In this document: piece after piece, positions 21,810-58,080 of the stretch
How the letters are laid out: each line of letters opens with the position of its first letter
Position numbering within the stretch: position 1 is the first letter of the stretch
Assembly: GCA_033807695.1 (NCBI GenBank)
Contig: CM066310.1
Coordinates: 744,001-808,000, forward strand
DNA from: Daedaleopsis sinensis
Lineage: Eukaryota > Basidiomycota > Agaricomycetes > Polyporales > Polyporaceae
Direction of reading: 5' to 3'
Length of the DNA stretch: 64,000 nt
Position numbers and translations under genes: made by a program
Notes under the pieces: model-generated
Told to the model about the DNA's origin: nothing
What the model saw: the letters and a program-made list of their open reading frames with translations, nothing else
The model's database searches: none

Positions 21810-22764
21810 TCAGCGGTTGTACTTGCTGATGTCCATGGGGTTCGAACCTATACAACAGGATATAACAGGTTCAGCTAGTTGGACGTGGATGCGATCGCAT
21901 GACCGACACGTACCGCACTTGCTCTCATAGACGTCGTACTCAACATTGCTCCCGTCGGGCGTGTATCTGGTAATCTTTGCACCGGTGTACCACTGCACAC
22001 GGCACGAACAGCAAATATGAGTGAGAAGGTGCGTCGGCGGTACGTATGACCTGGATCAAAGTACTCACGACGAAGTGGCCCTTCTGGCGGTCGGCGTAGT
22101 TGGCCTGCACGTTGCCCGTCTGGACCTTGTGGTTGACACCGACGACGTAGACGGCCTGTCGCCCAGCCGGGATGCTGAACAAAGTCAACTTGGACTGGGT
22201 CGTTGCCTTTGAAAGGGACTCGGAGATGCCGCCGCCAATGGAGAGGCCTCCGCTTTCGATGCCGAAGGTGACCTCGACGGTGGTGGTCTGGGTGATAGTG
22301 GTCTCGCCGCCAAGAGTGACACGGATGTCCCCCGATGAGCCCTTGCAGCTGTTCGTGGGAAGCCGGTCAGGCAAGGGCCGTCAGACTAGCCGGGAAGACA
22401 ACGTACTTCAGCTGAGCATCGCCGAGGACACGCCAGATCCGCTTGTCGGGGTTGTTGACAATGTTAATCTGTCATCGCAAGCTCGTTCTCAGTATACTGT
22501 GCGTGGTGCGTGGAGACAGGAGCACAATCTCACCAGTGTACACCGGTCCGCTCTTTCTACGTTGGGCGAGCCTGGGCCCCCGGGGCAGGACGCGATGATG
22601 TCCTTGCCAACGACCGTTCCTTGGTGAGTGCGAGACACCAGCCCACCGTCTGCTGGAATCGCGTCAAGCTCTGAGAAGCCTTCAAGTTGCGAGAGTGTGA
22701 GGTTTGCAGGGAGAGCAGATGCAACTCCGAGGAGGGACAGAGCGAAGAGCGTGAAGGCTTTCAT
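21810..22764 (-). CDS. Secreted cysteine-containing protein, copy 1 of a three-member family
   Basis: Five exons: 22534-22764, 22407-22468, 22069-22348, 21914-21992 and 21810-21847. Introns are 58-76 nt and all phases agree, giving 229 aa. Start is ATG 22764, followed by a signal peptide (MKAFTLFALSLLGVASALPA). A short acidic propeptide-like stretch ending LVSRTHQG precedes the mature part. Four Cys residues (ASCPGG, ADRC, NCKG, ESKC) could form two disulfides. The centre is Thr/Ser/Gly-rich with alternating residues (TVEVTFGIESGGLSIGGG) followed by IPAGRQAVYVVGVNHKVQ, an amphipathic beta pattern reminiscent of aerolysin-like beta-hairpin proteins. That likeness is only a hypothesis; no function is known to me. 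The gene lies in the left arm of a large inverted duplication. Confidence 0.82.
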
Positions 22765-22822
22765 GTTGATGGCTCTTGGAAGCTTCTTGAGGTACCCTGA
22801 GGAAGAACGAGACAGGTTCGGA

Positions 22823-22830
22823 CCTTTATA
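22823..22830 (-). promoter_or_regulatory. TATA box of secreted-protein copy 1
   Basis: TATAAAGG on the minus strand, about 60 nt upstream of ATG 22764. The same element with the same flank (GGAGTATAAAGGTCCG) lies upstream of copy 2, so the promoter was duplicated with the gene. Confidence 0.65.
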
Positions 22831-24286
22831 CTCCCTGGCGGGATGGGTGAAGCATTTCCTGATAGTTTTATATTGTGATTTGCCGTCGTCGTACCCGATG
22901 GCAGGCTCAGATTGCGTTTCCGAGTCTCGTCACAGCGTGCACTCAGCAAGCCCCAGCAGCTCCAGTAACTTCGGACCGTCCCTGCATGATGGAGGAGCGT
23001 CAAAGTGATACATTGGAGTGTTGCACGTCGGTCCGGGCGCACAAGCGAGCACTGCTACTCCTTGCTACTCTGATATGCTCATCATGAAGAGATTTGGGCT
23101 GATATGGGGCGACCGTGTGGAGACCTGCTGACACGGGCGATAAGTAGCTTACCGCTATCATGTGTCCACTCGTGGCGGAGGAGGAGGGAGTTGAGTATCG
23201 ATGGTCTTACAGTGCCATCAGGAAAAAGGAGCCCGCGGGAGATGGATCGGAGGTCGACGCTTCACGCGTTAACTTGAACTTTGATAATGGTGAAACGCCT
23301 ACCGAAGCGCTTAGACTCGCCCCGTCGGACGTCCGCGACTCCGCGTCGCCTTGGCGTCGCCCTTTGAGTTGGCTCGTACTGAATGCTGCTACTAGTACTA
23401 CATTGCTACATAGTAGTACAGGCCTGCGTCACCTCGGTATACACCCGGCAGGTCCCTTGAATCATCCTTTGCAAAAGACATAGTGGAACTGTCGTCGCTC
23501 CACCATAATCTCAAGATCAGATTCAAGTTCAACCTCCCGCGATACAGTATCCGAGCTATCCTATTGGCAGTTCTGTCCGCTATCGTCTTTTAGTAGAACC
23601 TGTGTAATGATACAGATCTATGAGGATCTATGCCGTACCTATTACTCGAGGATTCTCAACTCTGACGACGGATGCCAAGTTAATCACCGGACATGCTTAC
23701 ATACTGTCCAGCCAAGAGAAAGCTCGCTCAACCTCAGCCACAACTTCTCTGCGTGCCCTTGCTACCCGCAGTCTCCCGCAGTACGTTTGAGATAAGGGAT
23801 ATGTACGCTGGTGGCGACCCTGTACCCCACAACTGCGGCTCCGACTCGGACATGCGTCGCATCTCCCTGAGACATCGTCTTGATGTTCCCCACCTTGCGA
23901 TAGCTCTTGCGATAGCCTTCGTGCTAGCCGGGCCCATCTCAATGTCGATTTCACTCACCTAGGCGGTTTCTGCACCCTGCGATGGCGAGCTTGCAAGCGA
24001 TTGCAAGTCCTAGCTTGCGCGCTGATGGGACATGATCACTACATTGAACATCCAGCAGTTTACAGGGGCAGACTCAGCCTTGGCAAGAGGTTCCTGTCCA
24101 ATTTGATGTGGCGTATGCTGGGTGCGTTTGGTGCTATACTGACTATAGACTAGGCATATCCCAACCCATGACTAGGTACTGCGCATGATTAGGCATACTG
24201 CGTTTGAGGTGAACATCTAGATGAAGACTATTGATAGACGATAGACGATGTGGTTAAGTTAGCGTAAAAATAGAAGCTGCGCAAAA
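22831..24286. other. Gene-free upstream part of the left arm
   Basis: Between the secreted-protein promoter and the tRNA I see no gene. Patches here match the right arm in inverted orientation (see the arm entries). Small ORFs are not conserved between the arms, which argues against coding. Confidence 0.55.
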
Positions 24287-24388
24287 TGCTCGGAGTGAGG
24301 ATCGAACTCACGACCTCAGGATTGCCCACCGGTGATGGTCATACTTGCGTATGAGACCTGCGCTCTAACCAACTGAGCCATCCAAGCA
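24287..24388 (-). tRNA. tRNA-Met (CAT), elongator type, with intron
   Basis: Read on the minus strand: acceptor stem TGCTTGG pairs with CCGAGCA; the D arm is GGCTCAGTTGGTTAGAGC; the anticodon loop is CTCATA|A with a 27-nt intron after position 37; the T arm is GTGAGTTCGATCCTCAC. The T31/T39 mismatch flanking the loop matches elongator tRNA-Met. A run of T follows the 3' end as Pol III terminator. It differs by a single intron base from the copy at 26,461-26,562. Confidence 0.9.
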
Positions 24389-24834
24389 CACATAACTGGT
24401 TCCTATCGGAATAAGTCTTCCGCTCCCATTGGTAGACTCCCTCAGATTGTGTTCAGTACAGTAACGAAATCGTATGCCGAAAGCTGAGAGTCCTACTCTG
24501 CGGCAGTCTATCAGGAAGATAGGTCAAATAAAAACCGAATGATATCGTTACAAAGGCCTCCCGGTGTCCCGGTGTGCCCACATCCATGAAACGGGCTGCT
24601 GTAAGTGGGTCCAGATTCGCCATTGCAAGGCGTCACGATCACCAGCTGGAACCAAAACCAAGGAGAGTCCCAGACTCCAGTTACGCCGGAGCGGTCGGAG
24701 AGCCGTGCACCGCACCCAACCGGTACGTCGTACCGTAGTCCGTTCGAAGTTCGAACTGCACGTACGCGCGCACCCAACCACACGCATCACGACACCCCCC
24801 ATCGTCCACTCAGCGGGCGGCCAATGCTCAGCGC
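24389..24834. other. Intergenic region downstream of Rab18
   Basis: About 450 nt between the tRNA and the stop of Rab18, likely the Rab18 3' UTR. No further gene seen. Confidence 0.55.
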
Positions 24835-25906
24835 TCAGCACGAGCACCCGCCACCCTCTGCCTCGTCCGGCTCCTTGCTGAGGTCGATGCTGCCGGGCAT
24901 GTCGTCGCGGGCGCCGGCGGCGGCCTGCGCACTGTTCCTGCGCGCGACGGGGTGCGCCTGCCAGAGCTCGGGGGTGTCGAGGATGCGCGCGACGACATCG
25001 CGGAACGCGTCCTGCACGCCGACCGCGGTCTTCGCGGACGCCTCGACGAAGAGCGCGTTCATGCGCGTAGCGAACGCCTGGCCCTCGGCGTAGGGCACTT
25101 GTCGGGAGAACTCCTGCGCGTGCGTCCGGGAAGAGCGGGGGGACCGTGGACATGGGTGGCCACGTCGATGTTGGCAACATGGGCGAGGACGGAGTGACCG
25201 TGCATGCCAGGACAGCACGACATGGGTGGGGCACAGCGAGGATATGATAAGACGGCAGGAGATGGTGAGTGGCGGATAGAGCACGATGTCACGCGCGTGG
25301 AAAGGCGCACCTTGTCCACCTTGTTCCCCACGATAATCTTCACGACCGCACTGGACACGTACGTCTCGAGCTCCGAGAACCACCTCGGCAGCGCGTCGAA
25401 CGACTCCCGGTTCGCGACGTCGTACACGAGGATGATGCCCTGCGCGCCGCGGTAATATGATGAGGTGATAGTCCGGAAGCGCTCCTGGCCCGCGGTGTCC
25501 TGTGCGAGCGTTGAGCGAGCATAGTCAGCGGACAACGCAGCGGGGGGCACGGCCCTGCACTAGGATATCGTGGTGCGTACCCATATACTGAGCTTGACCT
25601 TCTTGCCGTTCACGTCCATCTTGTGCACCTGTGATGCAGGGCGTTCAGCGTGCGGTCTCCGAGTCAAGACTCAAGAGTCCAAGATGGCACTCGTCCCGCA
25701 GGATTTCTGAATCTGCATACGGTGTAGGGACTCACCCGGAAGTCGACGCCTATCGTCGCGCTGGATTCGTCCTCCGGGAGCCACTGCTCGTCCGAGAACC
25801 GGAGCAGCAGGCTGCTCTTCCCGACGGACGAATTCCCGATGAGGAGCAGCTTCACGTTGATGGGCGCGGCCGGCTTATCCTTGCCCTGTGCCTGTGTTTT
25901 CGACAT
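24835..25906 (-). CDS. RAB18: Rab18-type small GTPase
   Basis: Four exons: 25736-25906, 25581-25628, 25311-25499 and 24835-25113, separated by introns of 107, 81 and 197 nt; phases agree and give 228 aa. Start is ATG 25906; the upstream TTG in frame is not a start. All G motifs are present: G1 GNSSVGKS, switch [12 protein letters not shown]3 [12 protein letters not shown]4 NKVD and G5 SAK. The stretches [17 protein letters not shown] and [10 protein letters not shown] are typical of Rab18. The C-terminus ends CSC, a double geranylgeranylation motif. Rab18 controls ER-lipid droplet contacts and ER-related traffic. It is the only gene in the centre of the inverted duplication. The 197-nt third intron is long for this genome region. 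Confidence 0.93.
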
Positions 25907-26460
25907 CTCGTTCTGTGGACGCTGGTATGTATCGTTGTAGTCGTCGGTGTGGTCGTGTTCGAATTCGTTCAAGGGTCAGCGCACAGCTAGGACCAGCACG
26001 GTGCAGAGCTATAATCGTGTATTCCGGGACTCGGACACGCTGTAGTGTCGAAGCAAGGTTGGAGCGTTGGAGAGACTCGGAGACTGGGAGTGTGACTTGG
26101 AGATACGCAGGCTTAAGCAGTTGTAAGCTATGGGTGTTCGTGACTAGGAGACCGGGGAGGATGGTGCATGCAATGGACGAGGAGTAAGGTGGCAAGACGC
26201 AGTGTGCTACGCCGGTGGCTCGGCCCAGCGGCCCAAATAAACGCGTCCTCCTCAAGGCGCTCGTGACATCATACATAGGTAAGGTGCCGTTAAGCAGCGA
26301 GGGAGCTCCAGCAGTACTAGTGCTCGACGGTCGCAATATACTAGTGCTATATTTCATGACCATCTCATGATTTCCGGAGGATGATGTGAGTGAAGAGGAC
26401 AAGCAGTTGCAGTAGGTATGGGAGCAGTATAATGAATACTTATACGAACCTCCCTCGCTG
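25907..26460. other. Rab18 upstream region and right spacer
   Basis: About 550 nt holding the Rab18 promoter and the leader of the second tRNA-Met. No additional gene seen. Confidence 0.55.
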
Positions 26461-26562
26461 TGCTTGGATGGCTCAGTTGGTTAGAGCGCAGGTCTCATAC
26501 GCAAGTATGACCATCAACGGTGGGCAATCCTGAGGTCGTGAGTTCGATCCTCACTCCGAGCA
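26461..26562 (+). tRNA. tRNA-Met (CAT), elongator type, with intron, second copy
   Basis: Same structure as the copy at 24,287-24,388 but on the plus strand: acceptor TGCTTGG/CCGAGCA, anticodon CAT in the CTCATA|A loop, and a 27-nt intron with one substitution (CAACGG instead of CACCGG). TTTTT follows immediately as Pol III terminator. The exon sequence looks identical, so both copies are probably functional. Confidence 0.9.
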
Positions 26563-28018
26563 TTTTTATCACTTTGTTTCCTTTCTATGTTTTTGCTCTA
26601 ACCTTGCACATAGCAAGCATAGTCCTAGTTCTCAGCATGATACTAGACGAAGCCTGTACGGTTTAGTAATAGAAACAGCCAAGCTTGCAATCCCGTGTTA
26701 TAATCTACTGCGCGTCCGACCGTCGACGGCTAGTCCAAGACCACCACCAACATCCTCTTCGCCCTCTTGTTAGCCGAGATCACGATGACGTTAATATTCC
26801 GCCCCCCAGTCTTATAGAGACATCGACACTACTGTATAGGATAGGCTCATACTCACGACGTACGGCTATTCACTCCAGTGACACTGCGTCTTAGTAGCGC
26901 ACTTGTTCGCCTGCTTTATAAATATGCAGATTCTCGCTCTCTCGTTGGACGAGAAACTTGGCCCGAGCGGCGTCAACCAGCGTCAACCTCTCTCCACTGG
27001 CACTCTGATCGGAAACCATTGTGGCGAATCTGAGACGATTCAGGACGATTCACGCACTTGTCAGTGGATATTGCGTGTCTCCTCCAGTCAGCCTTCTTTG
27101 CTGTGCAGGCTTTCCAGCGCACCGCCGGCTCATCCTACTCCGTCAGGTGAGATCGATATCGATATCGAGATGGGGAAGGCTATAGTAACTGTTATCGCAG
27201 GGTGCTATGTATAGGGTGCTCGAGGAACATCAAGACGTTGTCTCAAAGAAATGCGATGCATCATGATGTCGTCGCTGCGACATCCCGCCAGGCCACACTG
27301 TAGTGGGACGCACGTGTATCTTAGATCTTTACTAGATAGCCCGCTCGGCAGCTTCAAAACCGTACGCTAAGGACGTGCCGGCCGGCCCACAGATAACTTG
27401 TTGTGGAGGTCGAGCGAGGAGATCGTTGGACAGTCTTTCTCTATTGCGTCTACATGTAGAATATACCAATTAAAGGCCCATCCTCCTCCTTATATCTGAG
27501 TATGTAGGAGAAGGGGGTGGGGGTCATGTAACCCCGAACCTGCAGTAGTAGTACTATCATAGAGAGTCTAGACAAGTACTAGTAGACGCCAGAGTTACCG
27601 GCGCTTCGTTGAACCCTGAAGCGAGCGTCCTCCTCCCTCCTCCTCCTATCATGGCACGGTAAGACCATCATCTATATTCAACTCACTTCTGCTCCTCCTC
27701 CAGCGAACACATGATAGCGGTTAGCTACTTATCGTCCGGCACCAGGTCTCCGTACCGTCGCCGCATGAGCAGATCTGTAGCAAGGAGTAGCAGTGCTCGC
27801 TTGTGCGCACGGACTCGGACGTGAAACACTCCACTGTGTCATTTTCACGCTCCTCCATCAAATCGGAACGGCCGGGTTTTGCTGGAGCTGCTGGAGCTTG
27901 CTGAGCACAAGGGCTGCTAACATAATCTGACCCTACGCTATCGTCGGGCACCGTCACAACTTCGTCAAACCGCTAATCTTAAACTATCATGAAATGCCTC
28001 ACGCGGCCCGCCAGGGAG
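26563..28018. other. Gene-free upstream part of the right arm
   Basis: No gene seen. Inverted similarity to the left arm occurs in blocks near 27,120-27,300 and 27,680-27,910. The stretch 27,300-27,660 has no counterpart I can see and may be an insertion or simply diverged. Confidence 0.5.
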
Positions 28019-28026
28019 TATAAAGG
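28019..28026 (+). promoter_or_regulatory. TATA box of secreted-protein copy 2
   Basis: TATAAAGG about 100 nt upstream of ATG 28123, within the same GGGAGTATAAAGGTCCG context as copy 1. Confidence 0.65.
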
Positions 28027-28122
28027 TCCGAACTCATAACGGCTCTCCCTTCCTCATGGTCTGAACCTCTCCGACTGTCACTCAGCCTCACAACCAAGCT
28101 TCCAAGATCTTGAGCCACCGAC

Positions 28123-29080
28123 ATGAAGGCCTTCACACTCTTTGCCCTGTCCCTCCTCGGCGCTGCATTTGCTTTCCCTGCCTCAAGCAACATAACCTCT
28201 GAACTTGATGGCTTCTCAGAGCTTGACGCAATTCCAGCAGACGGCGGGCTAGTGTCTCGCACTCACCAAGGAACGGTCGGTGGCAAGGACATCATCGCGT
28301 CCTGCCCCGGGGGCCCAGGCTCGCCCAACGTAGAAAGAGCGGACCGGTGTACACTGGTGAGATTGTGCTCCTGTCTCCACGCACCACGCACAGTATACTG
28401 AGAACGAGCTTGCGATGACAGATTAACATTGTCAACAACCCCGACAAGCGGCTTTGGTCGGTTCTTGGCAATGCTCAGCTCAAGTACGTCGTCTTCCCGG
28501 CTAGTCTTACGGTTCTTGCCTGACCGGCTCCCCGCAAACGTGAACAGCTGCAAAGGCTCGACGAGGGGCATCAACGTCACCCTCGGTGGCTCATCCACTA
28601 TCACCCGGAAAACTACTGTCGAGGTCAAGTTCGGGATCGAATCCGAAGGCCTCTCCATTGGCGGCGGCGTCTCAGAGTCCCTCGAGAGGTCGGTCACCCA
28701 GTCCAAGTTGACCTTGTACGCCATCCCGCCAGGAAGACAGGCCGTGTACGTCGTTGGTCTCAACCACAAGGTCCAGACGGGCAACGTGCAGGCCAACTAC
28801 GCGGACCGCCAGAAGGGCCATTACATCGTGAGCATTTTGATCCTGCGGACCGCCTACGCATCTCACTCGCATTTGCTGTTCGTGCCATGTGCAGTGGTAC
28901 ACCGGTGCAAAGATTACCATGTCCACACCGAACCCAGCTGACGGTATTCAATACGACGTCTATGAGAGCGCGTGCGGTACGTTTCGGTCAAACCATCGCA
29001 TCCGTGTGCAACCAGCTGAACTTGTCATGCCCTAATGTTTAGGCGCGAACGCCGAGGACCTCAGCTCTTTCAATCGCTGA
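28123..29080 (+). CDS. Secreted cysteine-containing protein, copy 2
   Basis: Five exons: 28123-28356, 28422-28483, 28548-28827, 28895-28976 and 29043-29080. Exons 2, 3 and 5 have the same lengths as in copy 1 (62, 280, 38 nt) and all introns sit at the same positions; the product is 231 aa. A signal peptide (MKAFTLFALSLLGAAFAFPA) precedes the conserved SRTHQGT..KDIIASCPGGPG segment. The Thr/Ser-rich beta core reads TVEVKFGIESEGLSIGGG and is followed by IPPGRQAVYVVGLNHKVQTG. The four Cys are kept. The C-terminal tail (ANAEDLSSFNR) is closer to copy 3 than to copy 1. Function unknown; an aerolysin-like fold is conjecture. Confidence 0.82.
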
Positions 29081-45291: not shown

Positions 45292-45928
45292 ATGATCTTC
45301 TCAAACGCCTCCGGATCAGCCGCAACACCCTCCTGCACATGCGCATGCCATGACAGCGGCCTCCAAGCGCATCCCCAAGCTCAGCACGGTGCTCCCGAGT
45401 CCCAGACGTCCACGGGCACCATCGATTCACCTCCAACTTCCATGCAGCCCGAACCAGAAACGGATCCGCCTCACTGTCACGCTCCCGCACCCAGCGTGTC
45501 CGAGGTGACGCTCGTGGAGGTGACGCTCCTCGGGGATCTCGTGCGCATCCTCGCCGCGGGCGGCGCGCGCCAGGACGCGCTCGTCGCGGAGGAGCAGCGC
45601 GCGAACGCGCACCGCGCCGTGCTCGCTGCGTCCGCGGTCCGGAGGTGCGCCCTCTCCCTCTCCCTTCCCCTTCCGCCTTCCCCTTTTTCTTCCCTGTGGA
45701 TTCTGTACGCAGGCGCGATGCTCACGGTGTGCACAGCGAGCTGCGGGCGTTCAACAGCGCGTCGGCGTGGTGGACGCCGCTGCCGCTGCTGAGCGGGGAG
45801 CCGTTCCCCGCGGGGGTCGCGCACCCGTCCAGTCTGTGGGCGCTCCGGCGGATGTCTGGTGCGTCCGCCTCCCTTGGCCTGTTTTTCGAGTTCGTCTGCT
45901 GCCGGTGCCTGTCGCTGACTGTGACTCC
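45292..45928 (+). pseudogene. 5' half of a host gene split by the Mutator-like element
   Basis: Start ATG 45292. Exon 1 (45292-45644) and exon 2 (45713-45858) are joined by a 68-nt intron (GTGCGC...CGCAG) in matching phase. The product starts MIFSNASGSAATPSCTCACH and continues to a conserved-looking block: VSEVTLVEVTLLGDLVRILA, then EEQRANAHRAVLAASAVRR, then SASAWWTPLPLLSGEPFPAG and SLWALRRMS. Intron 2 starts with GTGCGT at 45859 and is broken at 45,929-45,937 by the element. Exon 3 lies 10.8 kb away at 56,694. I do not know the family. A partial second copy at 57,694-58,080 carries exon 2's end through exon 3 without the insertion. Confidence 0.72.
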
Positions 45929-45937
45929 ATTACGTGG
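45929..45937 (+). repeat. Left 9-bp target-site duplication of the Mutator-like element
   Basis: ATTACGTGG, repeated exactly at 56,661-56,669 on the other side of the element. The uninterrupted copy at about 57,790 reads TTTATGTGG at this place, followed by the same GGATATGATG as the right flank. Confidence 0.85.
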
Positions 45938-47132
45938 AGGGAGTGACAAAAACAAAAACTACAACATACCGTGGGTGTGGGAGCGAGTGATCCCCCTCAG
46001 CGGCATCTCGGCAATGTACCACGTCTGCTCTTGGCGTCGGAAGAGTGTCGGCTTCTGCTCGCTGTCGGGAAGGTGCTGCTCGCTGTCTGGCACAGCGATC
46101 AAACTCCGTCTCGATTTGGATATTTAGACGCCGGAAGCACTATACTCAACGCTCCTTCGAAAGCGTCCGGCGCTTAGTTTGATTTGTCTTCGACATCACT
46201 TGTACGCTGCATGTAAACAGTTGGGATCAGGATAACACCTTTAGTACACGGATATAGATGTAATATGCGGGATAGTAGTGTCAGTAAGCTCCCCCCAATC
46301 TTACAGATATCGCAGGAACAGAAGTAAGCTTGGTTGTTCTCCCATAGTGTCCGAAGCGACGTGGATGTAGCAGAGAGGTATATTGGCCTGCATATTAAGC
46401 TATCTAATGCATTAGGTACTCTGTCTATAGGGGACGTTTACTAGAGCCCTGAATAAATTCTGACTGGGCAGTATCATAGGTGAAAAAGTCGTAGTCACTA
46501 ATATTAGTAAACGAAATGTGCGGTTGAGAGCGAGGATCTGCATCAGGAAATGCTGCTGGAAGAGGAATTGGAGGAGGAACTGAACGTCAACAATGTATTA
46601 GCTCGGTGTCACTGGTAGACTCATGTCAAATGAATGGACACACCGTGTTGATATTTGGCTTCCTTACGACGCTTTTTGGGTGTCGAAGCCTTGACTTCCT
46701 TCAGTCGCTCACTCACTACCTGTTTCTCTGTCTGAATAGCCTTGAGACGAGCCTCTAGAGCGGCCTGCTCAGCATGCTGCATTGCGCATGCAGTCTTCTT
46801 CTTCTTGCCAGAAGCATGCCGTTGAGCCTGTAAGGTGAAATGTTGCTCGACCGTCTTCGGACCATTGGGAAGAATCCCGGATTGAAGCATGTCTTGAATA
46901 CGTTGAGCAGTACGCTTATCATGCTCGCAGTATCTGCAAGTAGACATTTAAATCCTCAAGACCAAGAAAAGTAAAAAGGAACAACGCACAATAGAATACT
47001 ATCGGCGAGGGGGAGATTTGTCGGAACTGCGCGGTTGTCATCTGCATGACTACCTTCTAATGCGTTGGTATTCGCAGGTAGCAGATCCCAATATTTCTGA
47101 GGCATCTTGGTGAGATATGGGCTGATCGACGG

Positions 47133-48412
47133 TGATGGGAGGGCACCGGCGATCTACTAGGAAAACCCAGCAGATACAACACCGGGCAGACTCTCCGAAG
47201 GGTGCGAGGTGGACCTCTGGTTCCCGAGCAGCTGGAACGAACAACGATGTCGAGACGCGCACGTCAAGCATAGGAGCGCACGTCAAGCATAGGAGGAAGA
47301 CAGAACTCGAACACCGGGCACACAGCGAGCAGAGCACGAAGGAGATCGTACCAACATCCAGCCTAACAATGGGATCGTCTTGTCCGTCTCGTAGAAGGCC
47401 TGCCTCCGTATGGATATGGGGGATGGGGGATCGCCTGCATCGTCGGCTCGCCGTAGTGGGGACACGTCACTACCGTATGTCGTCGTCGAAGGGAGTCAGA
47501 AGGCTACGGGGTCGCAGGGAAGAAGGGGGAAAGATCGCCCGATTGCAGAGAAGGAGGAAGAAGGGTGCTGGGTCACAGAGCCAGAGAAGGGAGGGTCCGA
47601 GCCGCTCCACACGAAGAGGAAGGGTCGCCAGATGGCAGGGAAGGTGATGGTACTACGGTAAGCTAAGGAAGAGGAATAGCGCTCGAGCGAGCGGTAAGTA
47701 TGGGAGCTATCTAACTAAATATCCTAAATACATGGAAAATATACACTAAGTAAGTGCTGTGCCTACAACACGGTACGTACGTAGACATCGTGCACGTAAA
47801 GAGAAAGAGACAACAGCATGACACGCACGTAGATGTAGCAGCACTGAGCCTGGCTATATGTCCCTTGTACATCCACGTAGTCATCCTCGTAGGAGCGCCT
47901 AGCCTCGCTGTACCGTAATCCATCGCACATCGATGTAGGCTGATCACTCATCCAGCGTGTGTCGATGTAGTCGTCCAGGCCGAAGCATCCAGCCTCTAGG
48001 CTACTGGTGGGAGATGTCGAAGGAAATGGGGCTTGGAGAAGCTACTGCATGCATCTGCGGAAGGGGCGGTCTCCAATGAAAGGTGCACTTGTCTACTACC
48101 GCCTCTGCGCGTTGGAGGAAGGGAATGGCTGGTGTGTTGTCCTCATGCATAGCACGAACCTGTAATGGAGGGGCAGCTAGGGTCCTCTATGGCTGAGGCG
48201 GGAAGAGGACATCCAGGCTCCATCACGGGCGGGTCGAAGGCGTCGGAAGGGTGCTTGCTCTCCTGCTACGGTCTCTGCATGTCGAAGGGTGTACGCTCGC
48301 GCGGACCAGGTAGTATGGCAAAGGCTGAAGCTCTGTAGTGGGTATGTTGTAGACATTGTCGGTATCGACAATGGTGCGAAAATCGGAGCTGGCACCGCTA
48401 GGGGGCACATCA
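47133..48412 (-). repeat. 3' LTR (left copy)
   Basis: Starts TGATGGGAGGGC and ends GGGGGCACATCA, a 5-bp TGATG/CATCA terminal inversion. Differs from the right copy at only a few bases I noticed (for example GATCGTCTT against GATCATCTT near 47,372, and GAAGGCGTC against GAAGGTGTC near 48,240). ORFs inside are the same in both copies and not protein-like. Confidence 0.88.
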
Positions 48413-48421
48413 TCTCCCCCC
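48413..48421 (-). other. Polypurine tract of the LTR element
   Basis: GGGGGGAGA on the minus strand directly abuts the 3' LTR, as expected for plus-strand priming. Confidence 0.7.
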
Positions 48422-48899
48422 AACTGAGATTGGGACCGTCCCCGGTCCCTCCGCTCGGCGCACCTTGAGGGACAACACTGTTCCGCATGCCGACGTAGTA
48501 GAAGAGTAGAGCAGGGAGATTGATGGTCGCTCGCTCGTAGCTGGAGAGGAAGGATAGGGATACTGATGACTCGCTGGCCGTGCTGTACCGCTGTTCTGCG
48601 CGCTGGTTGAGACGTAGGACTCGCTGCTTCGCTGTACTGCGCGTGCACTGGAGGAGGGAGGACTCGAGGAGGAAGTACATCGATGGCTGCTTGCTGTCCA
48701 CTCTGTGTCGACGTTCCACGCGCTGCCTGAGAAGTATAACGGCGAGGGCCGCTCGCTGTATCGCTGTTTGATGTGCCGGTCGAGACAGAGGAAGAAGACA
48801 GCCGTTTGCCATCCACGCCGAAGTCTCCATTTGACGTGCTGTTCTAGATGTAGGCAGTAGACGGGTTGCCCTCGAGACGTAGGGCACAGACCAGTCGCC

Positions 48900-50600
48900 G
48901 TTGAACGTGTCGCTTGAGATGTAGGGCACAGATGGCCACCCGCTATCCGTGTCTTCGTGCTGGTCGAGAAGGAGGACACAGACAGCCGCTTGCCGTCCAC
49001 GCCGTATCACTGTTCCGTGCACTGGTCGAGAAGAAGGACACGGATGGCCGCTTGCCGTTCGTGCCGGTCGAGAAGCAGGAGGTAGACAGCCGCTTGCCGC
49101 CGACACCATATTGCTAGTCCACGTGCTGGTCGAGAAGAAGAATGCAGGCAGCCACTTGCCGCGATGGTCGAGGAGGATTCTGTGCGCTGGTCAAGATGGA
49201 GAACATAGATGGACGCGTCACCGGAGACATAGGGTGCTGAGGGCCGCTTGCTATCCGCACTGATATCTCCGTTCGACGTGCAGTCCAATGTGTCGCTCGA
49301 GATGTAGGGCACAGACGGCCGCTTGCCATTCGTGCTGAAACTGCCGTTCGATGGGCTGTTCGAGACATAGGGTGCAGGCGGCTGCTTGCTGTTCGCGCCG
49401 GTCGAGAGGGAGGACGTAGACGAACACTTGTCGTCCAAGCCGGTCGAGAAGAAGGACGTAGACGGCCGCTTGCCGTCCGCGCCGTATCGCTGTTCCGCAC
49501 ACTGGTCGAGGAGAAGGACATAGACGGCCGCTTGCCATCCCCGAAGGACGTAGACGGCCGCTTGCTATCCACGCCGGTCGAGAAGAAGGACGTAGACGGC
49601 CGCTTGCCCTCCACGCCGGTCGAGAAGAAGGACATAGACGGCCGCTTGCCATCCACGCCGGTCGAGGAGAAGGACGTAGACGGCCGCTTGCCGTCCGCGC
49701 CGTATTGCTGTTCTGCACGCTGGTCGAGGAGAAGGACATAGACGGCCGCTTGCCATCCCCGAAGGACGTAGACGGCCGCTTGCCATCCACACCGGTCGAG
49801 GAGAAGGACGTAGATGGCCGCTTGCCGTCCGCGCCACATCGCTATTCTGCACGCTGGTCGAGAAGAAGGACGTAGACGGCCGCTTGCCATCCCCAAAGGA
49901 CGTAGACGGCCGCTTGCCATCCACGCCGGTCGAGAAGAAGGACGTAGACGGCCGCTTGCCGTCCGCGCCGTATTGCTGTTCTGCACGCCGGTCGAGAAGA
50001 AGGACGTAGACGGCCGCTTGCCATCCACGCCGGTCGAGAAGAAGGACATAGACGGCCGCTTGCCCTCCACGCCGGTCGAGAAGAAGGACATAGACGGCCG
50101 CTTGCCATCCACGCCGGTCGAGGAGAAGGACGAAGACGGCCGCTTGCCATCCACACCGGTCGAGGAGAAGGACATAGATGGCCGCTTGCCGTCCGCGCCA
50201 CATCGCTATTCTGCACGCTGGTCAAGAAGAAGAACGCAGATGGCCGCTTGCCGTCCGCGCTGTATCGCTGTATCGCCGTAGATTCTGATAGCCGCTTGCT
50301 ATCATCCTCGTTATCGCCGCGCGCTGGTCGAGAAGGAAGATGCAGACAGTCGCTTGCCGTGATGGTCGAGGAAGGATTACGCGCGCTGGTCGAGAAGGAG
50401 GACGTAGATGGTGGTTGAAAAGGAGGATTCCGCGCGCTGGTCAAGGAGGACGTAGACGGCCGCTTGCCAGACACGCCACATCGCTATTCCGCACGCTGGT
50501 CAAGAAGGAGAATGCACTGCGCGCTGGTCAGGAAGGAGGATGCAGGTGGCCACTTGCTGTCCGTGCTGTATTGCTGCTCTAGGCACTGCACTGGAGGACG
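48900..50600 (-). repeat. 42-bp minisatellite inside the LTR element (14-residue period)
   Basis: Core unit GACGGCCGCTTGCC plus ATCCACGCCGGTCGAGAAGA and AGGACGTA, 42 nt long, nearly perfect between about 49,430 and 50,280 and degenerate outside. Some units carry a longer insert with CGTATTGCTGTTCTGCACGC. Because 42 is a multiple of three, all frames stay open; on the minus strand the unit reads STGVDGKRPSTSFF. The array may encode a repetitive protein or be a passive expansion. Confidence 0.85.
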
Positions 50601-51448
50601 AAGACCTCGGATGGATGCTGCATGTAGTGTTGTAGAGCTGGGATGCGCAGGATGGCACATAGCTGGAGAGAAAGGGGGTGAGGTGTGTACCTCCGTCATC
50701 TGTGGATGTATGGGGACGGGATCTAGGGGGCGCATGGATTCTAAGTGCAACATCGTGTGTGCCGGATCGCGTGCAGATTTGTCCGGCCGTTCGTCCTCGA
50801 GGTCCGGTCCAACATCAGGATAAGCGCGAAGTAGGGGGGGAGGAGTTGAGGTCTTGATATTGCGGCAACGCCGGCGCGCAATCTCTCGCAGTTGGGTAGA
50901 GGGAACGAGGGCATACTGAGGAGCCTGCGCACCAATTTTCAACCCACACCACCCGCTCCTGCCTGCTTCACTCTCTCTCCAACTCCAGGGGCCTCTGAAG
51001 CGTCTATGTCCCCATTGATGACTCGGTATCTCGGGATCGGCGCGCTAGATCTGCGTGGGAGCTGGACGACGGGTAGATCGAGGTATGTGAAGAGTGTGTA
51101 CCGGGTTGTGCGCTGATCCGCGTAGGGAGGCCTCCGCAATGCAGCCTCGAAGTGCGGGAGTCCAACAGCGGGTTGAGCGGGAAGGAAGCGAATGCAAGGG
51201 GAGCAAGCCTGAAGGATTGTGGGTGGAGAGAGGTCTGGGTCGATAGAAGAGAGGAAGTGAAGGATGGAGGGAGGAGAGACATCCATATTGAGGGAAATTT
51301 GGAAAAAGAGGTGGAGGTCCAGGTTGATCTGCTGGTGGAACCTTGATGCTTCAGCTTGAGGGGGTGCGGGGTCGTGGACCGGACATCGAGTAGGTTGCAG
51401 CTGGAACTCAGTGGTAGCAGAGAAAATCCCCTCGCGGTGGGCTCCAAG
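50600..51448. other. Non-repetitive interior of the LTR element
   Basis: Between the minisatellite and the primer-binding site there is about 850 nt without retroviral-type motifs. A 164-codon minus-strand frame (51,004-51,498) runs into the LTR and looks Ser/Pro/Leu-rich by composition only. Confidence 0.5.
51422..51446 (-). other. Primer-binding site of the LTR element
   Basis: On the minus strand, two nt after the LTR end, the sequence starts TGGAGCCCACCGCGAGGGG. Its complement ends GGTGGGCTCCA, like a tRNA 3' end with CCA. I could not name the tRNA from sequence alone. Confidence 0.6.
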
Positions 51449-52728
51449 TGATGGGAGGGCACCGGCGATCTACTAGGAAAACCCAGCAGATACAACACCG
51501 GGCAGACTCTCCGAAGGGTGCGAGGTGGACCTCTGGTTCCCGAGCAGCTGGAACGAACAACGATGTCGAGACGCGCACGTCAAGCATAGGAGCGCACGTC
51601 AAGCATAGGAGGAAGACAGAACTCGAACACCGGGCACACAGCGAGCAGAGCACGAAGGAGATCGTACCAACATCCAGCCTAACAATGGGATCATCTTGTC
51701 CGTCTCGTAGAAGGCCTGCCTCCGTATGGATATGGGGGATGGGGGATCGCCTGCATCGTCGGCTCGCCGTAGTGGGGACACGTCACTACCGTATGTCGTC
51801 GTCGAAGGGAGTCAGAAGGCTACGGGGTCGCAGGGAAGAAGGGGGAAAGATCGCTCGATTGCAGAGAAGGAGGAAGAAGGGTGCTGGGTCACAGAGCCAG
51901 AGAAGGGAGGGTCCGAGCCGCTCCACACGAAGAGGAAGGGTCGCCAGATGGCAGGGAAGGTGATGGTACTACGGTAAGCTAAGGAAGAGGAATAGCGCTC
52001 GAGCGAGCGGTAAGTATGGGAGCTATCTAACTAAATATCCTAAATACATGGAAAATATACACTAAGTAAGTGCTGTGCCTACAACACGGTACGTACGTAG
52101 ACATCGTGCACGTAAAGAGAAAGAGACAACAGCATGACACGCACGTAGATGTAGCAGCACTGAGCCTGGCTATATGTCCCTTGTACATCCACGTAGTCAT
52201 CCTCGTAGGAGCGCCTAGCCTCGCTGTACCGTAATCCATCGCACATCGATGTAGGCTGATCACTCATCCAGCGTGTGTCGATGTAGTCGTCCAGGCCGAA
52301 GCATCCAGCCTCTAGGCTACTGGTGGGAGATGTCGAAGGAAATGGGGCTTGGAGAAGCTACTGCATGCATCTGCGGAAGGGGCGGTCTCCAATGAAAGGT
52401 GCACTTGTCTACTACCGCCTCTGCGCGTTGGAGGAAGGGAATGGCTGGTGTGTTGTCCTCATGCATAGCACGAACCTGTAATGGAGGGGCAGCTAGGGTC
52501 CTCTATGGCTGAGGCGGGAAGAGGACATCCAGGCTCCATCACGGGCGGGTCGAAGGTGTCGGAAGGGTGCTTGCTCTCCTGCTACGGTCTCTGCATGTCG
52601 AAGGGTGTACGCTCGCGCGGACCAGGTAGTATGGCAAAGGCTGAAGCTCTGTAGTGGGTATGTTGTAGACATTGTCGGTATCGACAATGGTGCGAAAATC
52701 GGAGCTGGCACCGCTAGGGGGCACATCA
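51449..52728 (-). repeat. 5' LTR (right copy)
   Basis: Direct copy of 47,133-48,412 shifted by 4,316 nt without indels that I can see. In minus orientation this is the 5' LTR, followed after two bases by the primer-binding site. Confidence 0.88.
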
Positions 52729-55700
52729 ACGGCAGTAGCCACGAGTGCATCTTCTTCTGTGACCACCAGTCTGCATGGGCATTCACACACCACATTAGAA
52801 CAGTCTCAGAGTCTAGATATCGTACAGTACCTCGTAGCTCCTTGCATGGGTGAGATGAGCAGTAGATGTTGTACTGCTCCCGGTCCTCGGGAGAGGATAT
52901 GTACGGGTAACTCTGGAGGTAGTTACGGACATCCGAGCCCACAAGGTGGCTGAGCTTATCAATACCTCTAGTATATGTCAAGCACAAACAGAGATCAGCC
53001 GGGAGATGTACATGTTGGAAAACGTCGGACGTACCTCATCCAATGGACTCTGCAAGTGCGATACACATAGAGCAACAACTCAGGGCCGGACACTGCTGCA
53101 ATTCCACTGACGGACGGGCAGTTCACCTGTTGGTCAGCTAGAGCGGCACCGGTACCAATAGCTTGAGCAGCTTCGCCATCAGCTAAGATGCCAAGCAGGT
53201 TCCCCTTCTTGTCGAACAGCTTGAAGAGGAGACGCCGTCCTGTACTTGTTTCGATCGCCTTGAATAGATCGTTCCATACATCCCGATAGACTGAGTTGTC
53301 TGCTTTGTTAAGCCACACTCGTGCTGCAACCACACCTGTATGGTAAGAACACCGTCAGCTACTGACACATGATACTATAACTCGGATACAAGTCAGACAG
53401 AGGCTTACGGATATTTAACTCCGGAATCCATATCAGGAGCTTCCATTGGTTGACGTCGCCATGTACGCACTTGAACGTAGTGTCGATCATGACCCACGGA
53501 GATCTATGAATAAGTGTGGCGATGTACGAGTTCAAACAGACAGTGAGATGTGTGTTGTCACCGAGAATGCGTGTGGAGCGTATGTATCGCATGTCGATCT
53601 TCGTACGTTCATATTCATTCTGTTCCTTCTCCTTTTGTGCGATTACGGCTTTGTGACGATGGCGGACAAGAGATTGAAGTGAGTCTAACATAGTCTATGA
53701 ACGGCTGCATGATTGAGTAACATACCATGAATGCCGGTCATTGGACGTTGTGCCACCTTTGCGGCCTTCACTACTTGTCTTCTTCGTCGGTTGTCTCCAA
53801 GTGCCGGATGAACTTGGGATGGCAGGCGGCCCTCCAGTATATCCTTGGTCGAAGGTGCTATTAATAAGAATGTAGCATCAGTGTTGGCGGTGCACGTTGA
53901 CTCAATTTACTGCAAGACATACCAAGGTCGACACGAAGCGGTGTAGCCCCAACCAACCCATGTGCTTCTACACACTGCTTGTATGATGCGCGTGCAGAAA
54001 ACGGAACCTTCGCAGGCGGAGGTATGGGGTGGTTATGCGGATCACCTGGTCGCGGAAAAACTATTGCGCGACGATCACTAGGGTCCATAGGCACCCATAT
54101 GGACAGTGCAGCTTCGCATGCACGCTTCTCCATAGTCCCTATAACCAGCTGTCCGTCGTTAAAGTGAGTGAAGGCTACAAAATATTTGATTAGTACGAAT
54201 AGCATTACTAGCCAGACATGCAGTACATCGACTACTCACGGCATGTTCTTGCATTCTCTCCTCGTCGTGTTCGCTGAGGATGAATAACATAGGGACATCC
54301 AGAGTCCCCTACGGCTTCCTCGTCGAGATCGCTGTCGGAAGCGTCTTCTACGGCCTCTCCGGCGAAGAACTTCTCCAGAATCTCCAATGGAACATTGGTC
54401 GGGATGGCGGTGAATCGATGATGTATCTCGAGAGCACGGTCATGTGCTGACCAGTTAGAACATCCAACGAAATGTGTTTTGCCATCTCGCGGGCCCTATG
54501 AAACAAACACAATGGGTACCGGTAGTATACAGTGCGAACGCTTGCTGGGCGCGTGATTCATACCTTGGCATACTGACGCAGAACTGCTCTTCCACCGCAG
54601 CGCTGTCCTTCGAGCTGTGCTTGACAAGTCGTCCGGAGAGCAGATCTGTAGAAGCTATACGACAATAACCTAAGTCAGCAGTAGCACGCAGTAGCAGAAA
54701 GAGTCGAACACAATAAGAGAGCTTACTTTGCACTCATCCGCGCTACAGTTGCTCGCTCGCGGGCATACGCAGCTTGCAACGGCTTGGTGATCAAGCGTTC
54801 ACGCTCGTTTGGATCTGCATCCCATCGTCGATGACCGTACAAGCTGTCGTGGTGCTCCGAGCAAACAAGAACACCGTTGCAGTAGAGTATCGAGTACCGG
54901 CACTCCACCAATTTGCCGTGCTCGTCCTTGAGTAGAGGAATGGTGACGGTCCTCTGAGTAGATCCAGTGCTACCCTTCCAAGAGTCCTGACACTAAGCGT
55001 ACATCATGAGTAATAGAACAGCCCATAGAACAGGAAACATTGTACCTGCAGTTTGATATAAGCGTCCACTTTGAGACACTCCCGAGTCCCCGTTTGACTG
55101 AACTTGCTGTCATGCTCCGGCCCGCGCAGGTCAAGGATGTAGGCAACCATAGGCTGACCTGGACGAGGGACCGACCAGATCTCAGGTGCGTCGTCAATTG
55201 TCACGCATATATCCGCTGTGTTTTTCTTGTTCAAGCGGACGGGTTGGTGAGTAGCTTGAGCCGGTGCCCGATGTTGGTCTGCACCGTCTGAGTCCGAGTC
55301 ACGACGGCGACGTTTGCGTGAAACCCCTCGCTGTCCGAGCTTCGGAGGTGCCAGCCCGTGAGATCTCACGTCCTCGGACGAGTCGGATAGGACGATAATG
55401 GTATGGTGGAGTGCTGTGGTTTGCGACGGCGGCAGTGCTGAGGTAGGACCTGGACTTGCGGTGGAATTCGGGCTCGAAACCGGTGGAGGGCCCGGGGGAG
55501 AAGCGGGGTCTACCTGAGAGGAGAAATCATACGGCGCTGGAGACAATGGACCACTGAGAGAGGCGGGCAGACGTCCAGGTGACTGAGAGAACGAGGGTAT
55601 CTGTCCTTGGCCGGTGAGATCCCACCCATTCGCATCAAGCCAGGTGATCATCTTGAGCGGGTCAATCCAATCGGTGGTAAGTAGGATTTCGGGATGCTCT

Positions 55701-56660
55701 GCAACGATTGTATCCCCAAATACCTGATACATATCGCAGCCAGAGTCAATACAGAGTTTTTGAAGTCCTGCCCAGTGGCATACTAGTATGCTCACTCACC
55801 GCGCATGCATACCGATGTCTGTCTCCGAGTGAGACTGCATCTGTAGTATGAGATCAGTCACCGTGGACTAGTAGCAGAGGAGGATCACTAACCTGCTGAG
55901 AATACACCACTACTTGGTGGTCCGTAGCATGCATCGAGATGGGAGGGTGGGTTTAGCTCCTAGAGGGTGTTAGACAGATAAGTACGACTGGCAGTGTGCC
56001 ACAGCATTCAATGAAGCGGAGCCTTGAATATGAGAACTCACCATACGGAAAGAACTTCAAGGCCAGTGAATCTACGCAATGTTGCTGGGGAGCCGAGCGG
56101 GAGGTGATCATCGACTCGCTCCGACTTATACATTGCCCGTGCATTGGGGCCAGCCCCCAAATCTCCTGCCTAGCATCCCGCGACCTCCCTCTCGCATATT
56201 GCTTGTCTACCGATCGTTGGCCACCTACCGTGTTTGAGATCCTATTGGTCACTAGCCGTCGATATACTGAGGTCGGCTGGGCTGGAATGTTACCGATCTG
56301 GTTTAACCGAGTCCATCAATTGCTAGAGAGGTGCGGCCCGGCGGGGACGCACTACATGGCAGGACTAGATACAGAGTAATCGAGCAAATGAATAGGATCT
56401 CACCAGTAGTCGGACCATCCACACGATAGAGCAGGTCGCCAGTGACTGGAATGTGTGGTAGAGGGAGGCTGGAGTATTATTACGTAGCCGCAGAGGCGGG
56501 GAATAAGCGCCAACGCCTCCTCCCGCCCCGCCCAGCGCTCCACACGTCGGGCGCCGAGCGAGCCCAATTTGATGCGCCTATGGTTGCCGACGATTTCATC
56601 TGCTATTCCCACACACACGCTTTGTCGTAGTTTTCATTCTTACTACTACTCATCCCCACG

Positions 56661-56669
56661 ATTACGTGG
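56661..56669 (+). repeat. Right 9-bp target-site duplication of the Mutator-like element
   Basis: ATTACGTGG, identical to 45,929-45,937. It is followed by GGATATGATGTGTGCGCGG, the continuation of intron 2 of the split gene. Confidence 0.85.
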
Positions 56670-56935
56670 GGATATGATGTGTGCGCGGCGCAGATGAGGA
56701 GCTCCGGCGCGTGGCTGCGGCGTATGGGATCGGGGACGGGGACGGGGAGACGAGCGGGGACGTGCTTAGGGATAGCGTTGCGCTGTTCCTGACTGGGAGG
56801 CGTGCGTGAGCGGAGCTCGGAGCTGCATTTGTCGACGAGACGGCTCCGGGCAAGCGTGCGTGCGTTGGTCTCGAGGTGTGATAGCCGGATGAGGGAGTTG
56901 GCAAGGATGAACGGAGCAGAGTTGGGACGTTATCA
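56670..56935 (+). pseudogene. 3' half of the split host gene
   Basis: Intron 2 ends with GGCGCAG at 56,693. Exon 3 begins 56,694 in the phase left by exon 2 and reads DEELRRVAAAYGIGDGDGET, then SGDVLRDSVALFLTGRRA with a TGA at 56,807-56,809. A further helical stretch (VRALVSRCD, MRELARMNGAEL) follows in another frame and would be joined by a possible 49-nt intron (GTGAGC...GCAAG). Similarity to the second copy (57,790-58,070) ends near 56,935. Without the MULE, intron 2 would be only about 103 nt. Confidence 0.65.
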
Positions 56936-57693: not shown

Positions 57694-58080
57694 GTGGGCG
57701 CTCCGGCGGATGTCTGGTGCGTCCGCCTCCCTTGGCCTGTTTTTCGAGTTCGTCTGCTGCCAGTGCCAGTGCCCGTCGCTGACTGTGGCTCCTTTATGTG
57801 GGGATATGATGTGTGCGCGGCGCAGAGGACGAGCTCCGGCGCGTGGCTGCGGCGTATGAGATCGGGGACGGGGACGGGGACGGGGAGACGAGCGGGGACG
57901 TGCTTAGGGATAGCGTTGCGCTGTTCCTGACTGGGAGGCGTGCGTGAGCGGAGCTCGGAGCTGTATTCGTCGATGAGACGGCTCCGGGCAGGCGTGCGTG
58001 CGTTGGTCTCGAGGTGTGATGACCGGATGAGCCTGAGGGAGTTGGCAAGGATGAACGGAGCAGAGTTGGAAGATGGCCAG
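57694..58080 (+). pseudogene. Second, insertion-free copy of the split host gene's 3' part
   Basis: Begins with the end of exon 2 (TGTGGGCGCTCCGGCGGATG), continues through intron 2 and exon 3 (DELRRVAAAYEIGDGDGDGE) to LARMNGAELEDGQ. At about 57,790 it shows the uninterrupted site CCTTTATGTGGGGATATG. Exon 1 and most of exon 2 are missing, so it is not a complete gene. Confidence 0.78.

Follow-up and report, generated by a model that had tools for sequence, protein, structure and literature searches.

An intron of a predicted gene in a 64,000-nt stretch of the Daedaleopsis sinensis genome (hereafter the window; C11:744001-808000) carries two elements, one inside the other. We consider it highly probable that a ~5.1-kb DNA transposon entered the host intron and that a 5.6-kb LTR element later entered exon 12 of its transposase gene. 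In this account, the transposon would have integrated into a 103-bp intron and duplicated a 9-bp target, ATTACGTGG, after which a 5.6-kb LTR element, non-autonomous and of Ty3/Gypsy type, would have integrated into exon 12 and duplicated ACGG. Both insertions, both duplications, sites lacking each insert, a second copy of the transposon and conservation of its reading frame were directly observed. Genome searches covered 51.6 Mb in 24 contigs, and coordinates are collected in Table 1.

Table 1. Features of the interrupted host gene, the DNA transposon and the nested LTR retroelement (window coordinates).
Feature	Coordinates	Strand	Basis or remark
Host gene, predicted exon 1	45292..45644	+	Sequence reading; 204-aa model; no Pfam match
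Host gene, predicted exon 2	45713..45858	+	Donor at 45859
Left 9-bp target duplication ATTACGTGG	45929..45937		Sequence comparison
DNA transposon, ~5.1 kb without nested retroelement	45938..56651	- (transposase strand)	Ends from C8 copy and end symmetry
Left imperfect terminal inverted repeat	45938..45982	+	32/45 identical to right end, ungapped
Transposase exon 13	46621..46933	-	Exon-by-exon comparison with C8 copy
Transposase exon 12, remainder	46990..47132	-	After nested element; 1 difference in 143 nt from C8 copy
Target duplication ACGG, left	47129..47132		Flank reading
Nested LTR retroelement, LARD-like and most likely non-autonomous, inside transposase exon 12	47133..52728	-	Absent from C8 copy
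3' LTR (element sense), 1280 bp	47133..48412	-	Genome LTR family
Polypurine tract GGGGGGAGA adjoining 3' LTR	48413..48421	-	Sequence reading
Minisatellite arrays, mostly 42-nt units	48954..50199		Inside nested element
5' LTR (element sense), 1280 bp	51449..52728	-	Genome LTR family
Target duplication ACGG, right	52729..52732		Flank reading
Transposase exon 12, first 38 nt	52733..52770	-	Before nested element; identical to C8 copy
Transposase exons 1-11	52831..55934	-	No inner stop, no frameshift relative to C8 copy; one in-frame 9-nt difference (exon 3)
Right imperfect terminal inverted repeat	56607..56651	-	32/45 identical to left end, ungapped
Nine extra bases ATCCCCACG	56652..56660		Between transposon right end and right duplication; absent from C8 copy
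Right 9-bp target duplication ATTACGTGG	56661..56669		Sequence comparison
Host gene, predicted exon 3	56694..56809	+	Acceptor end 56693; frame kept across joined flanks
Partial host-gene paralog with empty site	57694..58069	+	Genome search and alignment

The host intron and its empty counterpart

The host gene model comprises three exons whose translation, 204 aa, contains a single stop codon, at its end; compared with Pfam, the three exons gave nothing above cut-off. A first-pass annotation of the window had proposed that the insert is flanked by a 9-bp direct duplication and that joining its flanks reproduces intron 2. We found ATTACGTGG on both sides of the insert, and joining the flanks restored a 103-bp GT-AG intron together with the 204-aa frame, free of inner stops. 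The present length of this intron is 10,835 bp, and an intron of 10.8 kb would be expected to abolish normal splicing of the predicted gene.

The same annotation had pointed to an uninterrupted version of the site in a nearby paralog. Alignment of the joined flanks (45836-45937 plus 56670 onward) with 57694-58069 agreed: of the 376 columns, 345 are identical, 13 mismatched and 18 gapped. The paralog carries the site once, as TTTATGTGG, which differs from ATTACGTGG at two bases, and it has no insert. Used as a query against the whole genome, the paralog returned three matches, namely itself and the two flanks. It begins within exon 2, ends downstream of the stop codon and has the form of a short, nearby duplication of ~376 bp.

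Elsewhere in the window, positions 22500-28390 hold a degenerate inverted duplication of six arm pairs that are 81-99% complementary. Its inner arms each bear a tRNA gene (24287-24387, minus strand; 26462-26562, plus strand; Rfam RF00005), neither of which was called by ARAGORN in its bacterial setting.

A second copy defines the DNA transposon

The search for further copies sharing the ends, suggested by the first-pass annotation, yielded one, on contig C8 (C8:1325624-1330741; hereafter the C8 copy). It is 5118 bp long, has the same left end, lacks the nested retroelement and aligns with the window copy in two blocks that are 98.3% and 98.7% identical. Both of its ends abut a perfect direct 9-bp duplication of its own, GTGAACGCA. 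Both copies of the transposon are flanked by a 9-bp target duplication, and for each a site lacking the insert was found. Since 47133-52728 is a separate, later LTR retroelement, the transposon proper measures ~5.1 kb (5114 bases when the nested retroelement and one copy of its duplication are excluded).

Only these two copies were found in the whole genome, so the right end is placed from one other copy together with end symmetry. With the right end at 56651, the inverted ends match at 32 of 45 ungapped positions, a value reached by none of 20,000 shuffles and the best among 40 end positions tried (next best, 20). When the C8-defined ends are used, the motif AAAACTAC lies at positions 18-25 from both termini. 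The claim that inverted motifs occur at equal spacing in both ends therefore held, while the claim that the right end abuts the duplication did not, the end lying at 56651 and not at 56660. A pattern search with the shared end motif for shortened copies (up to 3 mismatches) recovered nothing beyond the four known ends, two per copy. When the genome was searched at the protein level, all 8 matches of one search and all 14 of another fell within the two transposon loci. Taken together, these findings support reading the insert as a cut-and-paste DNA transposon, low in copy number, that ends in inverted repeats, encodes a transposase and duplicates 9 bp of its target.

The insertion site of the C8 copy allowed a second comparison with empty sites. 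One flank matched an integrase zinc-binding domain, with the integrase core below cut-off, and the other matched SH3_Tf2-1 and a chromodomain; judged from these domain matches, the target is a Gypsy-type integrase frame that the transposon has cut in half. Since this target lies within a repeated frame, related copies could be examined for the insert. The joined flanks returned 19 matches, 15 of which cross the junction (67-76% identical), 2 of which are the flanks themselves and 2 of which stop short. Six loci were inspected, and in every one a 35-base stretch spanning the junction was free of gaps and 74-76% identical; these empty sites are related copies at 67-78% identity, not the same locus. 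The C8 locus (L013, C8:1324900-1331500) therefore shows a transposon inside a retroelement, and the window transposon itself hosts one. The core of the first-pass observation is confirmed, and the C8 copy, with a duplication of its own and related empty sites, reinforces it.

The nested LTR retroelement

The first-pass annotation had treated the 10.7 kb as one element, of which over half proved to be an LTR retroelement that the C8 copy lacks. This nested element is 5.6 kb long and is bounded by LTRs with TG..CA ends that differ at 3 positions (1278 of 1280 positions compared). On the minus strand, GGGGGGAGA precedes the left repeat, where a polypurine tract would be expected, and CTTGGAGCCCACCG follows the right repeat, as would a primer site. 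Searching the genome with the LTR gave at least 55 matches with 40 of 58 candidates scored, at least 15 of them full-length, including the two LTRs in the window. Three other elements of this LTR family were inspected, and their 4-bp duplications read ACGT, TCGC and, if one changed end base is allowed, CCGT.

A single 10.7-kb Mutator-like element (MULE) whose ends abut both duplications would account for the duplication and the motif symmetry visible in the raw sequence, and its 9-bp duplication would lie inside the 8-11 bp that passages of PMC6446971 give for MULEs. It would not account for a C8 copy without 47133-52728, unless the nested element and one ACGG had been precisely lost there, nor for the LTRs, separate duplication and genomic relatives of that segment, and end symmetry is 12/45 at 56660 vs 32/45 at 56651. 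We therefore regard a single element as extremely improbable, and treat the locus as a DNA transposon carrying a later LTR insertion.

Six of the longer minus-strand frames in the interior of the nested element were compared with Pfam, and none gave a match. A Gypsy-type relative elsewhere in the genome (L044/L045, C8:1626500-1639600), whose LTR starts lie 12.65 kb apart, shares with the nested family no more of the LTR than its outer 136 bases (95% identical), plus the adjoining tracts. A minus-strand frame of this relative exceeded the cut-offs of the RNase H and integrase zinc-binding models and stayed under that of reverse transcriptase (25.2 vs 29.6 bits). The nested piece is therefore most likely non-autonomous and of Ty3/Gypsy type, with its sense on the minus strand as judged from the polypurine tract, the primer-site-like sequence and this relative. 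L044/L045 is likely the autonomous partner of the nested family, and may supply its proteins. The nested element resembles LARDs in its long LTRs and repeat-rich interior without a Pfam match among the six frames, and in sharing LTR ends and primer and polypurine regions with this Gypsy relative. It differs from them in its 4-bp duplication and its interior of 42-nt minisatellites.

Nine inverted bases at the right junction

The window copy carries nine bases, ATCCCCACG, between its right end and the right duplication. They are the exact reverse complement of CGTGGGGAT, a target sequence at the insertion, and equal the target duplication in length. When random 9-mers from the window were compared with random 50-nt targets, such a match occurred in 0.03% of trials, a probability of ~0.0003.

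One reading takes ATCCCCACG as the true right end of the transposon, lost by the C8 copy. In favour of this reading, the nine bases lie where the element meets the right duplication, and only two copies were found for comparison. In the C8 copy, however, a perfect 9-bp duplication abuts both ends; moreover, end symmetry is highest without the nine bases, and an exact inverted copy of target sequence is not readily ascribed to chance. We therefore consider it very unlikely that these bases belong to the transposon. They may instead have arisen at insertion, if target DNA was copied in inverse orientation while gaps were being filled. Alternatively, they could represent an older 9-bp duplication that the transposon brought with it after an earlier integration into nearly this site.

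The transposase gene and its constraint

In keeping with the coding capacity proposed for the insert, a transposase gene is present, and in the C8 copy it comprises 13 exons joined by GT-AG introns that encode a protein of 1001 aa (1001 codons without an inner stop). All exons of the window copy are colinear with those of the C8 copy; apart from the split in exon 12, they differ in length only by 9 nt within exon 3. The window reading frame is thus interrupted, because the LTR element integrated into exon 12. Across 930 codons taken from the 12 exons other than exon 12, with boundary-spanning codons and the 9-nt indel also set aside, we counted 18 synonymous and 10 non-synonymous differences between the two copies. 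The resulting dN/dS of 0.17 (Fisher P 5e-6) indicates that the transposase was under constraint while the copies diverged.

The C8 protein contains putative catalytic motifs, namely D667, D744 and E876, with a C-x-x-H from position 786 and a T-N-x-x-E. The D, D and E residues and the C-x-x-H are conserved in three of the relatives described below (P0001, P0002 and P0004). These motifs suggest that catalysis relies on a D-D-E triad and that cleavage proceeds as in MULE transposases.

Comparison with Pfam gave no match for the spliced C8 protein, and nothing above cut-off either for ten window-copy frames, including the nine coding frames of exons 3, 4, 6-11 and 13, or for six relatives (P0001-P0006). 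Weak Pfam matches among the frames and relatives (best E 0.0049, AurF) look like chance. Two frames searched against PHROGs gave no match, and the one NCBIfam match obtained with three relatives was likewise taken as chance. Against solved structures, a two-sequence profile produced one weak match (E 0.37), to an rRNA-processing protein, and the AlphaFold models of P0001 and P0002 (mean pLDDT 38 and 42) are too poor to show whether the catalytic fold is RNase H-like.

Is the transposon a MULE?

MULE terminal inverted repeats span 14-500 bp, and some families have none. The transposon resembles MULEs in its short, imperfect inverted ends (32/45) and in the D-D-E pattern of its transposase, with a T-N-x-x-E and a C-x-x-H between the second D and the E. 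Its 9-bp duplication likewise falls within the MULE range (8-11 bp in passages of PMC6446971). It differs in that the transposase has an upstream cysteine/histidine-rich region without a Pfam match. The MULE model PF10551 matched neither the spliced C8 protein, nor the ten window-copy frames, nor P0001-P0006; in the genome it gave at least 4 matches, and the four listed lie outside the transposon.

Profile comparisons added little. With profiles of 2-4 sequences, hhalign scored the transposase at noise level (E 0.34-0.51) against two MULE proteins of the same genome, taken from the PF10551 matches, and HMMER, also with few-sequence profiles, gave a non-significant E of 0.67 against one of them, L029. 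The hhalign controls were noise as well (transposase profile vs KDZ, E 0.22; MULE vs KDZ, E 0.13). Because the profiles hold only 2-4 sequences and few relatives were found, this negative comparison with MULEs is a weak one.

An alternative reading is a separate, undescribed D-D-E lineage that is not MULE and happens to make 9-bp duplications. Such a lineage would be consistent with the lack of a match above cut-off to PF10551 or any other Pfam family, with the failure of the two MULE proteins to align, and with the offset of the C-x-x-H, which lies 42 residues past the second D here vs ~19 in L029. The D-D and D-E spacings, in contrast, are close to those of L029 (77 and 132 vs ~80 and ~138), and resemblance to MULEs extends to the T-N-x-x-E, the C-x-x-H, the short inverted ends and the duplication length of 9 bp; the small profiles also lessen the force of the negative alignments. 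We consider a separate lineage possible, if somewhat doubtful. A more specific combination, in which D-D-E transposons that duplicate 9 bp form an undescribed lineage in mushroom-forming fungi, perhaps ranking as a superfamily, and ATCCCCACG stems from a double hop at nearly one target that carried along the inverse of an old 9-bp duplication, appears unlikely.

Membership in the KDZ (Kyakuja-Dileera-Zisupton) group was also weighed. The KDZ model PF18758 has at least 175 matches in the genome (150 of 193 candidates scored), and the profile scores against KDZ proteins (hhalign E 0.22; best HMMER match, KDZ L008, E 0.35) equal or exceed the MULE scores, although none rises above noise. Nevertheless, none of the PF18758 matches listed falls inside the transposon, the spliced C8 protein and the window-copy frames lack a KDZ match, and the duplication is 9 bp, vs 7 bp for Kyakuja and 8 bp for Zisupton in passages of PMC12730594. 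Assignment to KDZ is therefore scarcely credible.

Genome-wide, matches to the KDZ model are far commoner than matches to the MULE model (at least 175 and at least 4, respectively).

The earlier label 'Mutator-like' thus agrees with duplication length, ends, and motif pattern and spacing, but finds no counterpart in a PF10551 match or, in the underpowered profile comparisons, a significant alignment with MULE proteins. We therefore describe the transposon as working like a MULE, which is fair, and as no more than a possible member of that superfamily.

Relatives in other fungi and significance

A large protein collection contained at least six relatives of the transposase (P0001-P0006), each search having scored only the ~8000 candidates that share the most words, such that further relatives could have escaped notice. 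Over 93% of query region 470-960, P0001 (Trametes versicolor, 899 aa) shows 58% identity, and P0004 (Mycena leptocephala, 964 aa) is 39% identical to the core of the C8 protein. P0003 (Mycena metata) is similar in the upstream part only, and P0002 comes from a metagenome. The Trametes and Mycena relatives are deposited as single hypothetical proteins, and similar hypothetical proteins are common in Agaricomycetes. In the literature searched, we recognised no publication that describes this transposon. The transposase belongs to a barely catalogued lineage that occurs in mushroom-forming fungi.

Mechanistically the locus is unremarkable; what deserves notice is the transposase lineage, together with the nine inverted bases. 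The locus places the events in order, with the DNA transposon first and the LTR element second, and the host segment is also present without either. Exact ends and a full gene structure are thereby defined for transposases of a lineage that escapes Pfam, and annotation based on such libraries will miss these elements or label them as host genes.
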